Part shown: positions 50,609 through 56,184 of the stretch, one piece after another
Layout: the number at the start of each line of letters is the position of its first letter
How positions within the stretch are numbered: the first letter of the stretch is position 1
Source of the DNA: Hymenobacter sp. PAMC 26628
GTDB taxonomy: Bacteria > Bacteroidota > Bacteroidia > Cytophagales > Hymenobacteraceae
DNA: 64,000 nt
NCBI RefSeq assembly: GCF_001562275.1
Contig: NZ_CP014304.1
Span: forward strand, 1,736,001-1,800,000
Direction: 5' to 3'
Notes under the pieces: generated by a model
Seen by the model: only the letters and a program-made list of their open reading frames with translations
Database searches by the model: none
What the model was told of the DNA's origin: nothing
Translations under genes and position numbers: made by a program

Positions 50609-52618
50609 TTACTTTAAAATCGTGACGGTGCCGGTTTGGCGTAAGGTTTGGCCGGTTTCGTCGGTTTGCTCGAAGCGCCACACGTACACGCCGTTCACGG
50701 GCGCATGGCCGTTGGTGGTACCGTCCCAGGTGCTGGCGCGGTCAGTGGCGCGGAACACCTGCTGGCCGTTGCGGTCAACGACGATCAGCACGAAATTTTC
50801 CAAAAACCGGCCTTTCACTTCAAACACGTCGTTCAGCCCGTCGCCGTTGGGGGTGAAGGCGTTAGGCAGCAGCAGGCGGGCGCGGCGCGGCACCTGCGCC
50901 ACGCTGGAGTAGCTGAACGTGCCCGCCGGGATGCCGGCCCCGCTGATTTGCAGGCGGTAGCGCAGCACCTGGCGGTCGGCCGGCGGCTGGGCATCGGTGG
51001 TGCTGAGGGCGGTGGTGGGGGCGGCCGTGGCCAGCGCTGTGCCGTCGGGGGCCAGGGTTTGGAGGGCGTAGGCGGCGGGCTGGCTGGGGTCGGGGCCGCT
51101 GAAGGCTGACCAGCTCAGGCCCACGGCGGTGGCGTCGTCGTCGAGGGCCTGGGCGGTGAGGATGCTCGGGCAGGCCACGCCGCTTTCGGCCGAGGTGTTG
51201 CCGCACAAGTCGGTGAGGCGCAGCGAGTAGCACACGGCGGTGAGCGTCGCCGCGCCGGTCGAGTCGGTGACGGTGCGCCCGGTGGTGGCCGTGAGGAAAT
51301 CGGAAACGGGGCCCGCGCTGGGCAGGCGGCGGTAGTGCAGCGTGCCCCCGGCCGGCACGGGGCCCCCGGGCAGGCTGGGGGTGAGCGTCGGCCGGTTTTG
51401 CAGGTTGAAGCTGGCCACGAGGCGGGGCGTGGGCGGGGCCACGTTGGAGGTGGCCACCAGGCTGGCTTCGTTGGACAGCACGGCCCCGCCGTCGGTGCTC
51501 ACGCGGTAGGTGTAGCGGGTGCCGCACACCACGTTGGGGTCCTCCAGTCCGCCGTTGATGGGAGTCAGATTGGTGATGGCCACGCCGTTGCGCGTCACGG
51601 CGTAGGGCCCCGGGCTAGGGTTGGCGTTGGTTAACAGCAGCTGGTTGCGGCCCTGCGCCGAGGCCACCGCCAGGCCCAGGGTGTAGCGGGTGGCCGAGGC
51701 GACGGTGGCGGTTTGGCAGTAGTCGGTGCGCAGCAGGCGGTAGCCGCCGGCCACGGCGTTGGGCAGGGCAACACTGGTGCTGCCCGGCGGCACGTCGGCC
51801 ACGTTTTGGAACGGGCCAGCGGTACCGGCCGGGGCCCGCTGCAAGCTGTAGAGGTAGCCGGCCGGCAGCTGGCCCACGGCCAGGCTCAGCTCGCCGTTGG
51901 GCGCGGGGGCGCTCAGCGTCAGGGTGTTCAGGGCGGGGGCCTGGGCGGCCGCTAGGGTGGGGATGGTTTGGGTATTGGAGCTGGTGCAGGGCCCCACCAA
52001 GTTGTAGTAGCCCGTGACCGTGACGGTAGTAGCCCCGGCCAGCGCCACCACCTGCGGCAGGTTGCGCCGCAGCACGGGCACCTCGGGCCCACTGCCGGCG
52101 CGCACGGTGTAGCGGTCGTACACGGCATCCGTCACCGTGACCAGGGCCACGCCGGCGGGGCAGGGGGCGATGGCGAACGGCGGCGGCACGGTGGCGTAGG
52201 CCGTGAGCACGCGGGTGTAAAACGTGCCGATGACGCCGCCGTTGGCCAGCGTGGTGTTGGCGTTTTCGGAGATGGTGACGGGGCCCGGCGCGGTGGGCGT
52301 GTAGCGGTACACGGTGCTGGCCCCGGTGGGCGAAATCAGGCAGCTGGGCGGGTACACGTTGGTGCCCGGCAGGGCCGTATAATACGTCAGATCGGGCGAT
52401 ACGGCGCGGCTGGCGCAGGGCACAAAGCGCACCGCCTTGCCCACGCACAGCGCCTGCACCTCCTGCCCGGTGGCGGCATCGACGACGGCAAACGGCACGC
52501 CGTTGCAGTCGGTGGGCGGAGGCTGGGCGCAGTTCTGGGCTTGGGCCCGTGCAGGCGCCAGGCCCCACGTCAGGCCCATTAGTAAAAGGAAAAATAAACC
52601 GGGGAGCGTCAGCTTCAT
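50609..52618 (-). CDS. Secreted protein with gliding-motility-associated (T9SS type B) C-terminal domain
   Basis: This protein of about 669 residues starts at MKLTLPGLFFLLLMGLTWGL, with a signal peptide ending near ARAQAQ. The middle is Thr/Ala/Pro-rich and likely beta-sandwich repeats (fibronectin-like), with paired Cys. The last 90 residues are the CHU_C/type B sorting domain: LLLPNAFTPNGDGLNDVFEVKG, VDRNGQQVFRATD, WDGTTNGHAPVNGVYVW. This directs export through the type IX system to the surface. Function beyond surface display is unknown. Confidence 0.9.
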   Translation of the reverse strand: MKLTLPGLFFLLLMGLTWGLAPARAQAQNCAQPPPTDCNGVPFAVVDAATGQEVQALCVGKAVRFVPCASRAVSPDLTYYTALPGTNVYPPSCLISPTGASTVYRYTPTAPGPVTISENANTTLANGGVIGTFYTRVLTAYATVPPPFAIAPCPAGVALVTVTDAVYDRYTVRAGSGPEVPVLRRNLPQVVALAGATTVTVTGYYNLVGPCTSSNTQTIPTLAAAQAPALNTLTLSAPAPNGELSLAVGQLPAGYLYSLQRAPAGTAGPFQNVADVPPGSTSVALPNAVAGGYRLLRTDYCQTATVASATRYTLGLAVASAQGRNQLLLTNANPSPGPYAVTRNGVAITNLTPINGGLEDPNVVCGTRYTYRVSTDGGAVLSNEASLVATSNVAPPTPRLVASFNLQNRPTLTPSLPGGPVPAGGTLHYRRLPSAGPVSDFLTATTGRTVTDSTGAATLTAVCYSLRLTDLCGNTSAESGVACPSILTAQALDDDATAVGLSWSAFSGPDPSQPAAYALQTLAPDGTALATAAPTTALSTTDAQPPADRQVLRYRLQISGAGIPAGTFSYSSVAQVPRRARLLLPNAFTPNGDGLNDVFEVKGRFLENFVLIVVDRNGQQVFRATDRASTWDGTTNGHAPVNGVYVWRFEQTDETGQTLRQTGTVTILK

Positions 52619-52649: not shown

Positions 52650-53750
52650 CTACTGCACACCGTTCGAGCCGGCCACGGGCCACGCGTAGCGGCGCACGAA
52701 CGCCGCCGCCTGCCGCAGCGCCGGGTACGGAGCCGCTCCGGGGCCCCCGCCGGGCACCGCCGCCCGGAAGGCCGCCAACAGCATTTCGCCCGGGCTAGTG
52801 GCCCCCGCTACAAGCTCCACCGCCGGGGCCCCAGCCGCCGCCAGCAGCTCCACGCCCAGCAGCTGCTCGGCGTTTTCCACTACTTGGCGGGTGCGTAAAG
52901 CAGCGTAGGCATCGGATTCCGCGGCCACTAGCTGACTGCTGGTAGCGGTATGTTTCGCCAAGCCCAGCGCGGCCGCACCGAGCCCCGGCCCCGCCACATA
53001 CTGCGCCGCGCGGGTCGCGGCTGCCTGGCCCAGCGCCGCCGCGGCCGCCACCAATTGCCCCAGCGCGGGGGCCAGCGGGGCCGATTCTTGACCGCCTAGG
53101 GCCCCAGTCACGGCTTGCTCCGCCGCGTTCAGTACGGTTTGGAATGCCGTTTCTTCGACCGTTTCGGCTGGCGCTAACAGGACCCGCACGGCCGCCGCGG
53201 CCCGCGCCAGGTGCCGGGCGCGTAGTAGCGCATCCACGGCGTAGGCCAAAGCGAAGGGGGCCCCGCGCCGCAGGGCCTCCGCCTCGCCGGCGCGCAGGGC
53301 CAGCGGCTCCCAGCTGAACAGGCTGAACGCGTCGGCCGTGGCCAGGCGGTAGCCCTGGTAATTGATTTCGCCCTCGCCCAGCAGCGGCAGGGCCAGGTGG
53401 GCCCGGGCCGCGTCGTCGCCGCCTTGCTCGAACACCACCGGCAAAAGCTCACGGTTGTACATGGCCAGCAGGCGCTCAACCGTGGGGCGGGGCAGGCCAG
53501 TGGGTTGGTTGACGGCCTGTTGCGCGGCCAGCAGCAGCATCAGGCGCACCAGGGGCTGGGGCGCTTCGGGGCCCGTGCCGCAGGCCTGGGCTCGCAGGGC
53601 GGCCAGCTCGGGCTCGGCGGCGGGGGCCCCGGCGGGGGCGAAGCGGGCGGCTGCTTCGGGGCCCAGGGCCACGGTTTCGCCGCTGGCCCGCAGCTCGGCC
53701 AAGGTGCTAAGGGTGAGCGGGGCGCCGGGCGTGAGGAGATGGGCGGACAT
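52650..53750 (-). CDS. Aromatic amino acid ammonia-lyase-like protein lacking the MIO tripeptide
   Basis: This 366-residue protein starts at MSAHLLTPGAPLTLSTLAEL. It aligns by eye with HutH/PAL proteins (about 500 residues): N-terminal LTLSTLAELRASGETVALGP, then LLPVVFEQG at residues 102-110 and HLALPLLGEGEINYQGYR at 118-134, and a C-terminal VVENAEQLLGVELLAAAG block. In active lyases the EKGS segment runs through Ala-Ser-Gly before LAPLAH; here it is EQGGDDAARAH, so the residues that form the MIO cofactor are missing. The YGxNTGFG loop is also not visible. It is probably not a lyase. It lies 31 bp upstream of the surface-protein start. Confidence 0.72.
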   Translation of the reverse strand: MSAHLLTPGAPLTLSTLAELRASGETVALGPEAAARFAPAGAPAAEPELAALRAQACGTGPEAPQPLVRLMLLLAAQQAVNQPTGLPRPTVERLLAMYNRELLPVVFEQGGDDAARAHLALPLLGEGEINYQGYRLATADAFSLFSWEPLALRAGEAEALRRGAPFALAYAVDALLRARHLARAAAAVRVLLAPAETVEETAFQTVLNAAEQAVTGALGGQESAPLAPALGQLVAAAAALGQAAATRAAQYVAGPGLGAAALGLAKHTATSSQLVAAESDAYAALRTRQVVENAEQLLGVELLAAAGAPAVELVAGATSPGEMLLAAFRAAVPGGGPGAAPYPALRQAAAFVRRYAWPVAGSNGVQ

Positions 53751-54702: not shown

Positions 54703-56184
54703 TCACAAGGACCTAGGGGTTACTTCCTGGGCCAGCACGGCCACGGCTTCGGCCACCGAGAGCAGCTGCTCCTGGCCGGCGCGCATGTCGCGCAGCTTCA
54801 CCTGGCCGGCGGCGCGCTCGTCGGGGCCCGCCAGCAGCAGGTACGGGATGCCTTTCTGGTCGGCGTACTGGAACTGTTTTTTGAGCTTGGCCGCGTCGGG
54901 GTACAGTTCGGCGGGCACGCCGGCGGCGCGCAGCTGGGCCAGCAGCGGCAGGCCGGCGGCCAGCGAGGCCGCGTCGAACTGCGCCAGCAGCACCCGGGTG
55001 AGGGTACCGGTGCCGGCCGGGAACAGCTCCAGCTCCTCCAGGCAGTCGTAGAGCCGGTCCACGCCGAAGGAGAAGCCCACGCCCGACACATCCGGCAGCC
55101 CGAAGGCCCCGGTGAGGTTGTCGTAGCGCCCGCCGCCGCTCACGCTGCCCATCGCCACGTTGTTGATTTTTACCTCAAAAATGCAGCCCGTGTAGTAGGA
55201 GAGGCCCCGGGCCAGCGTGGGGTCAAACTCCAGCCGGTCGAACTGGGCAAAGCCGGAGGCTTGCAGCAGGTCGCGCACGGCGGCCAACTCGTTGAGGCCC
55301 CGGTAGTAGGCATCCTGCGAATCGTCGGCTTCGTCGGTGGGCTCGTTGGGGCCCGGGCGCTGGCCGTCGGGCTCCACGCCGGCCGTCACGAAGCCGACCA
55401 GCAGGCGCTGGAGCTTCTTGGCGTAGCCACCGCCCACCGTCAGCAGCTCGAACAGCGTGTCGATGGTGGGGGCCGTAAAGCCTTTTTCGAGCAGCTCCTT
55501 GCTCACGCCGTCGCGCCCGATTTTGTCGAGCTTGTCGATGGCCACGAACAAGTCTGTCTCTTTGCCCTCGCCGCCCAGCGCCTGGTAAATGTTGCGCAGC
55601 ACCCCGCGATGATTGATTTTGATGGTGAAGTCCACCAGGCCCAACCCGTTGAGCACCTGGGCCATCATCAGCACAATTTCGGCTTCGCAGAGCAGCGAGT
55701 CGGTGCCCACCACGTCGGCGTCGCACTGCCAAAACTCGCGGTAGCGGCCGCGCTGGGGGCGGTCGGCGCGCCACACGGGCTGCATCTGGTAGCGCTTGAA
55801 GGGGAAGGTGAGGGCGGCCCGGTTCATGGCCACGTAGCGGGCGAAGGGCACGGTGAGGTCGTAGCGCAGGCCCTTCTCGGCGATTTTGGGCAGCACGGCA
55901 CGGGGGCCCTGGGCGAGGTCGTCGGCCGTCACGAGCGGGGTAATTTCGCCGCGCCGTTCCTTCACCAGGAAGTTGCCCGAGTTCAGCACTTTAAACAGGA
56001 GCTGGTCGCCCTCGTCGCCGTACTTGCCCGTCAGCACCGAGAGGTTTTCCAGGGTCGGCGTTTCGATGGGCGCGTAGCCAAACTGCTCGAACGTGCGGCG
56101 GATGACGCCAAAAATGTGCTGGCGGCGGGCCACCTGGGCCGGGCCAAAATCGCGGGTGCCTTGCGGGATGCTGGGTTTTTCCAT
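54703..56184 (-). CDS. hisS: Histidyl-tRNA synthetase
   Basis: HisRS, 493 residues, is a class II synthetase. It starts at MEKPSIPQGTRDFGPAQVAR. Motif 2 is VWRADRPQRGRYREFWQCDAD. The histidine-specific motif is LARGLSYYTGCIFEVK, followed by GSVSGGGRYDNL and VGFSFGVDRL (motif 3). The C-terminal anticodon-binding domain follows (AAGVPAELYPDAAKLKKQFQ). A TACCTTTG promoter box ends 8 nt before the ATG. Confidence 0.96.
   Translation of the reverse strand: MEKPSIPQGTRDFGPAQVARRQHIFGVIRRTFEQFGYAPIETPTLENLSVLTGKYGDEGDQLLFKVLNSGNFLVKERRGEITPLVTADDLAQGPRAVLPKIAEKGLRYDLTVPFARYVAMNRAALTFPFKRYQMQPVWRADRPQRGRYREFWQCDADVVGTDSLLCEAEIVLMMAQVLNGLGLVDFTIKINHRGVLRNIYQALGGEGKETDLFVAIDKLDKIGRDGVSKELLEKGFTAPTIDTLFELLTVGGGYAKKLQRLLVGFVTAGVEPDGQRPGPNEPTDEADDSQDAYYRGLNELAAVRDLLQASGFAQFDRLEFDPTLARGLSYYTGCIFEVKINNVAMGSVSGGGRYDNLTGAFGLPDVSGVGFSFGVDRLYDCLEELELFPAGTGTLTRVLLAQFDAASLAAGLPLLAQLRAAGVPAELYPDAAKLKKQFQYADQKGIPYLLLAGPDERAAGQVKLRDMRAGQEQLLSVAEAVAVLAQEVTPRSL

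Follow-up and report, generated by a model that had tools for sequence, protein, structure and literature searches.

A histidine ammonia-lyase gene without its catalytic motifs, retained under selection: repeated erasure of hutH in Hymenobacter and its family

Why should a bacterium keep an ammonia-lyase gene in an open frame when the residues that would make its product an enzyme are gone? This question is raised by a hutH gene in the window, the stretch of 64,000 nucleotides from Hymenobacter sp. PAMC 26628 that was analyzed here (Table 1). A sequence-only reading of this stretch had claimed that the protein keeps the HutH/PAL framework, has lost the MIO-forming Ala-Ser-Gly and the Tyr loop YGxNTGFG, is encoded by an intact and maintained frame, and lies next to a gene for a T9SS-type protein. 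All of these claims were borne out. The frame is open on the minus strand from the ATG at 53750 to the stop at 52650. In the following, a motif is called “missing” and a gene “erased” when the text pattern (ASG, YGxNTGFG, or QDxYSxR) fails, which in full-length erased forms corresponds to altered and not to deleted blocks.

Table 1. Features of the hutH region, in positions of the window
Feature	Position	Strand	Basis
Surface protein, type IX secretion (type B sorting), downstream of hutH	50609..52618	minus	PF13585, TIGR04131; locus survey
Erased HutH orthologue (366 aa)	52650..53750	minus	ORF, profile matches, alignments, dN/dS
C-terminal helix, residues 290-306 (VVENAEQLLGVELLAAA), retained	52833..52883	minus	model, alignments, block comparison
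Beta-hairpin, retained, with the stretch after it (Q132, Y134, and W147 among the residues), residues 128-150 (EINYQGYRLATADAFSLFSWEPL)	53301..53369	minus	model, alignment, block comparison
Junction of residues 110/111: five-residue deletion including the MIO-forming Ala-Ser	53420..53421	minus	alignment with intact orthologues
Junction of residues 39/40: Tyr loop (intact orthologues: YGINTGFG) and its surroundings absent, about 31 residues in all	53633..53634	minus	alignment
Short-chain dehydrogenase, between hisS and hutH in the window genome	53892..54671	minus	
hisS, histidyl-tRNA synthetase, upstream of hutH, same strand	54703..56184	minus	

The HutH/PAL motifs quoted for the protein are present, and in the profile search PF00221 was its only Pfam match, with 105.5 bits (E 3.5e-30; cut-off 27.3), best over the N-terminal half. 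The top NCBIfam models were those of histidine ammonia-lyase (HAL), all far under their cut-offs, for instance, NF006871 with 99 bits (cut-off 524) and TIGR01225, the HutH model, with 88.8 bits (cut-off 539.15); the intact relative G043 of the same genus passed the latter with 615.4 bits. HALs were also the nearest sequences with a solved structure. According to an AlphaFold2 model built from an alignment of 4 sequences (pLDDT 73.6, pTM 0.73), the window protein is predicted to retain the MIO-lyase fold: HAL ranked first in Foldseek (E 5e-10), and VIA-align yielded a Z of 26.1 for 7tqr (rmsd 3.3, 299 residues) and of 25.3 for the HAL 1gkj (rmsd 3.0, 295 residues), with HAL and tyrosine aminomutase tied in the top rows. 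Among the 50 rows listed, MIO lyases and ergothionase reached Z values of 19.6 to 26.1, compared to about 14 for fumarases. A different helical family, considered as an alternative, was rejected on the Pfam result and on the higher structural scores of the MIO lyases than of the fumarases. The family assignment stands because profile, sequence, and structure matches agree.

Alignment with intact orthologues located the losses. The MIO region reads EQG-SLGAS-GDLAPLAHL in the intact orthologues and EQG-GDDAARAHL in the window protein; Ala-Ser of the triad is gone with the five-residue deletion, and the Gly is left. Besides the Tyr loop, the block holding QDPYSxR is absent, as are the LCTPASVDS segment and most of the stretch that leads to SGGNFH, and the EDHVSM region can be aligned without its residues being conserved. 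A search for a displaced Ala-Ser-Gly yielded RASGETVA, near the N terminus, as the sole ASG of the protein, which upholds the loss.

By position and by sequence, hutH of the window is a vertical orthologue of the hutH genes in its relatives. PF00221 was present in all 204 genomes of the host family, the Hymenobacteraceae, and thus in 120/120 genomes of the genus; in the rest of the order, it was found in 206 of 311 genomes, 105 being without, and in family f19 in 244 of 295, 51 being without. The motifs were read at the 120 positional loci of the genus and in 19 of the 84 other family genomes, while the remaining 65 were classified from their profile scores. All three motifs were kept at 92 genus loci and all were missing at 26. 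The N-terminal part of hutH lies in another frame at the remaining two loci, G014 and G061; ASG is intact in both, and these cases could be assembly errors. The orthologues with the same loss that were sought following the sequence-only reading were thus found in 36 family genomes, 26 in the genus and 10 in other genera.

The catalytic motifs of these 36 genes are gone or altered to varying depth, and two depths can be told apart: forms near full length with altered or deleted catalytic parts (for instance, SLGAYGD or SLGA-GD) and shrunken forms of about 365 to 400 residues, the window gene among them. Some full-length erased forms contain catalytic remnants, namely, YSFR in G013, G105, G019, and G101 and an INTG remnant in G101. 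G094 and G101 have lost or altered MIO and Tyr regions beside nearly intact blocks such as SGGNFHG and QLCTPAS and, judged from these motifs, look like early stages of erasure. Genus g2 contains erased forms only (8/8), with profile scores down to 30 bits, and the two erased genes in genus g5 (G181 and G182) are near full length. A single open frame is present in 35 of the 36 erased genes, the N-terminal part of G107 being cut by a contig end; the erased gene of G018 (Hymenobacter coccineus), a draft assembly, is frameshifted. Outside the family, nine low-scoring matches look, judged from the match table, like contig-edge, split, or frame-broken copies and not like erased genes; further low matches are present in f19 (for instance, G689, G720, and G542). 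G045, G020, G013, G054, and G006 possess an additional PF00221 paralogue in which ASG and the Tyr loop are intact and which is possibly a tyrosine ammonia-lyase.

The erased genomes are scattered among the intact ones in a concatenated tree and in a tree of hisS. The best hisS tree contains 11 changes between the intact and the erased state, and its strongly supported branches force 5 changes when the other named group is the only one with which the erased rows are contrasted. That the erased genes of the genus (21 cases in the hisS tree) go back to one event was rejected by the AU test with a p-AU of 0.0006, obtained on this single-gene tree with its long branches. The lesions at the MIO site differ between the erased groups in the alignment, which covered 34 of the 36 erased and 40 intact sequences. 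The catalytic motifs were, therefore, lost several times independently in the family; since the trees are quick ones of one or two genes, “several” is claimed and the exact number is uncertain.

Erasure accompanies the loss of the remaining histidine degradation pathway. The window genome contained no match to urocanase (HutU, PF01175) and none over the cut-off to HutI (TIGR01224). HutU, tested in 200 of the 204 family genomes, was found in 79/120 genomes of the genus and in 66/80 of the other family genomes, and HutI over cut-off in 76/120 genus genomes. Urocanase was absent in 35 of the 36 erased cases, with this absence being less sure in G094, G108, and G126, which are only 78% to 82% complete. 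The sole exception, G093, possesses on another contig a separate HutU-HutI-HutH set with intact HutH motifs and keeps the erased hutH despite this second set; it seems to have regained the histidine pathway while the erased gene stayed. This second HutH of G093 (contig C142) is divergent and adjoins HutI and HutU. Conversely, 20 family genomes contain an intact-looking HutH without urocanase, 16 in the genus with motifs read (among them G062, G064, G085, G100, G116, and G118) and 4 outside it judged by score, and loss of the pathway seems therefore to precede erasure. G012 seems to have lost the pathway recently: HutH is intact, urocanase is absent, and HutI is present as two sub-cut-off pieces with stops (contig C1, positions 599621 to 600375). 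In a paired test of erasure against HutU loss on the hisS tree, 7 pairs were obtained, on average 4.7 for, 0.1 against, and 2.2 tied, with a median p of 0.0625; the association was not significant on well-supported branches. Outside the family, 35 of 77 genomes (G204 to G280) were without HutU, 26 of them also without PF00221 and 9 with some match, and all 26 genomes lacking PF00221 in this set lack urocanase as well. The two absences, thus, coincide more closely outside the family than inside it. The sequence-only reading had concerned a single gene; beyond it, the loss is recurrent, accompanies the loss of urocanase, and affects a gene that is present in all family genomes searched.

The erased hutH genes are under purifying selection. 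In 15 pairs of erased genes, dN/dS was 0.08 to 0.46 (NG86 values only, G018 excluded; Z of 3.0 to 8.9), and each pair was below the minimum of 60 neutral simulations, the means of which were 0.67 to 1.06. The sequences compared contained some codons from before the start, and the ratio should therefore tend upward. Among the pairs listed, at most six for each group (six of the 10 pairs of clade A and six of the 15 in each of clade F and g2), dN/dS was 0.28 to 0.44 in clade A, 0.43 to 0.49 in B, 0.20 to 0.27 in C, 0.29 in D, 0.08 to 0.13 in E, 0.08 to 0.19 in F, 0.11 to 0.15 in the unsaturated g2 pairs, and 0.23 for G122/G127. Intact HutH controls had values of 0.04 to 0.17 among the pairs listed, and in comparison, constraint is relaxed in the erased clades A to D (0.20 to 0.49). 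In clade A, dN/dS of the downstream gene was also high (0.28 to 0.56), as was that of one hisS pair (0.36). Intact HutH in genomes without urocanase had a dN/dS of 0.05 to 0.07 in two clades and of 0.23 in one pair. In these two clades, the intact protein is constrained without the pathway, which would point either to the second role also here or to urocanate being of use in itself.

The dN/dS values and the simulation speak against a neutral pseudogene. That the gene is useless and slowly on its way out after relaxed selection would agree with its dN/dS above that of intact HutH, with the progressive shrinking, with the frameshift in G018, and with the low scores in g2. Such a decay is nevertheless quite improbable, considering that all 15 pairs were below the neutral dN/dS, that simulated neutral drift led to a mean of 1.9 to 18 stops per sequence (although to none in the best run for 9 of the 15 pairs) while 35 of 36 erased genes stayed in one open frame, that not one of the 204 genomes had lost PF00221 although HutU was absent in 55 of 200, all 55 keeping PF00221, and that the erased state is common to all eight genomes of the divergent genus g2. 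With its motifs lost and the gene held by selection, the window gene probably encodes a pseudoenzyme.

The gene downstream of hutH encodes a type IX sorting domain, with 58.1 bits for PF13585 and 43.2 bits for TIGR04131. From its signal peptide-like start, the surface protein should be exported, and HutH should be cytoplasmic, which counts against a joint role of the two. At 138 of the 139 loci read in the family, a same-strand relative of this surface protein follows hutH; the remaining locus is on the short contig of G094, which contains neither hisS nor the downstream gene. The two genes adjoin in 138/138 family loci where both were found. The open-frame gap between them never exceeded 400 nt (0/138), in comparison to 25 of 121 gaps above 700 nt between hisS and hutH. 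This unbroken pair points to shared expression or shared work. Besides the window genome, strong matches to the short-chain dehydrogenase between hisS and hutH were confined to G018 and G010 within the genus loci retrieved, with a weak one (51 bits) in G116.

One consequence of this arrangement could be that only operon structure or translational coupling is at stake, with the frame being kept for expression of the surface gene while the protein itself does nothing. The unbroken adjacency is consistent with such a coupling, as is the short distance from hutH to the first downstream ATG, with a median of 34 nt in 30 erased loci compared to 103.5 nt in 104 intact loci (four of them outside the family). 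However, this first ATG is more than 400 nt away in 6/30 erased and 7/104 intact loci, so that the true start of the surface gene is unclear there. Of 20 loci inspected in other families, 4 also had the order hisS-hutH-surface protein; these 4 were from f19 (6 loci inspected), a family with 51 of 295 genomes without PF00221. The gene order alone, therefore, does not enforce retention. Moreover, coupling alone would not protect the amino acid sequence, yet dN/dS was 0.08 to 0.46 as opposed to the simulated 0.67 to 1.06, and residues of a hairpin are invariant in erased representatives, as outlined below. This favors a role at the level of the protein and leaves mere coupling unlikely.

Which parts of the protein are retained was evaluated with 12 erased and 12 intact representatives, compared in blocks of ten positions in reference numbering. 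In the catalytic blocks, identity among the erased forms was only 0.02 to 0.22 of the intact value, in contrast to ratios of 1.02 and 1.18 in the two blocks of the hairpin (reference positions 161 to 180; QGYxL). Block 161-170 had the top identity of all blocks among the erased forms (0.76), and the first part of residues 128 to 150 of the window protein falls in this best-conserved block. The FxWxP block after the hairpin had a ratio of 0.78 and the stretch preceding the MIO site one of 0.92; the terminal blocks 11-20 and 491-497 were also above 1 (1.28 and 1.09), at lower identity. Invariant in the 12 erased representatives were, among others, Q168, G169, Y170, L172, F181, and W183 of the reference. 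The hairpin pattern could be parsed in 33/36 erased, 97/103 intact, and 20/20 outside-family sequences. [YF]QG was present in all 33 parsed erased sequences, and QG in 57 of the 97 parsed intact family sequences and in 2 of the 20 from outside; of the three erased sequences that could not be parsed, two (G121 and G122) read QS and QN. Presence of QG in 57 intact sequences indicates that the hairpin QG was retained and not gained.

Alternatively, the scaffold may have taken on another chemistry and become a new enzyme. Ergothionase is a natural MIO-less homologue (PMC13405746), and its structure 6s7j matched the window model with a Z of 24.6. However, the shrunken forms have lost the loops of the active site by deletion, and lesions vary between the lineages. 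The polar residues in the 40 best-conserved erased columns are E93, R124, R131, H154, Q168, E434, and R492, of which all but Q168 and R492 are at least as well conserved in the intact forms, so that no new polar cluster stands out. A new catalytic function is, in consequence, very improbable. The sequence-only reading had proposed a pseudoenzyme, either as partner or regulator of an active lyase or as a repurposed helical scaffold. HAL-family enzymes are tetramers with shared active sites, into which an inactive partner could fit. A profile search of the window genome yielded no second PF00221 match, however, and another match beside the erased HutH was found in only 2 of the 26 erased genus genomes (G093 and G013), the other 24 having none, which brings the chance of a partner or regulator close to nil, unless the active lyase belonged to a family other than PF00221. 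The proposal of a pseudoenzyme with a repurposed scaffold is sustained by the lost motifs, the predicted fold, the occurrence of the loss in orthologues, and selection.

The reading preferred here, with a probability of about 0.58, is that hutH was disarmed in lineages without the hut pathway and that selection keeps its product as a pseudoenzyme for a non-catalytic function, perhaps one connected with the gene downstream. The process would have started in lineages without other histidine degradation (urocanase, imidazolonepropionase), in which the Tyr loop, the MIO segment, the QDPYSxR block, and subsequently further loops may have undergone deletion or change without loss of frame; purifying selection would have continued to act on the helical bundle and on one hairpin. 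The resulting protein is probably dead as an enzyme and may do the job of a scaffold or adaptor, which the intact HutH of the family would have done already. The retained hairpin (QGYxL, followed by FxWxP) is a candidate for the contact surface, and the position of the genes suggests that the job may be tied to the always-adjoining type IX secretion cargo. Loss of the MIO and Tyr regions with the other blocks nearly intact, as in G094 and G101, may mean that there was selection for inactivation itself, for instance, by stopping a drain of histidine into dead-end urocanate in cells that needed the scaffold. A more far-reaching version makes HutH a two-job protein throughout the family, with an indispensable, non-catalytic second job done jointly with the type IX cargo and an activity that became harmful after loss of the pathway and was repeatedly removed by selection, through in-frame excision of the catalytic loops that spared the scaffold and one hairpin; this version is possible but doubtful.

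As a rule, pseudoenzymes are encountered as isolated, completed events. In this family, an ordinary metabolic enzyme is losing its active site in parallel and at different stages, with intact close relatives as controls. This natural series may allow one to ask why the scaffold is kept, whether disarming was selected, and if a textbook catabolic enzyme has a hidden second role. It also means that such genes may carry the annotation of a histidine ammonia-lyase without having the activity. Full-text literature searches (for histidine ammonia-lyase pseudoenzymes and for hutH and urocanase in these bacteria) retrieved no report of an erased HutH in Hymenobacter or its relatives.

Among the known systems, delta-crystallin of bird lenses kept a lyase fold for a non-catalytic role; it belongs to another lyase family, its role is known, and we know of no repeated loss of the active site there. 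Ergothionase of Treponema denticola (6s7j) is HAL-like and MIO-less as is the window protein, with a Z of 24.6 over 299 residues; it is, however, a full-length working enzyme, whereas the window protein has lost the loops themselves and shares 15% identity with it, and the matches between the two are at the level of the fold only, at 13% to 15% identity. As described for ergothionase (PMC13405746), the HAL fold can work without MIO. The nearest system is HutH itself (PF00221, TIGR01225), from which the window protein differs by the absence of the MIO triad, the Tyr loop, and QDPYSxR, by being well over 100 residues shorter, and by a genome without urocanase or a HutI over cut-off, and with which it shares the position before the same downstream gene, the N- and C-terminal sequence, and the predicted fold.
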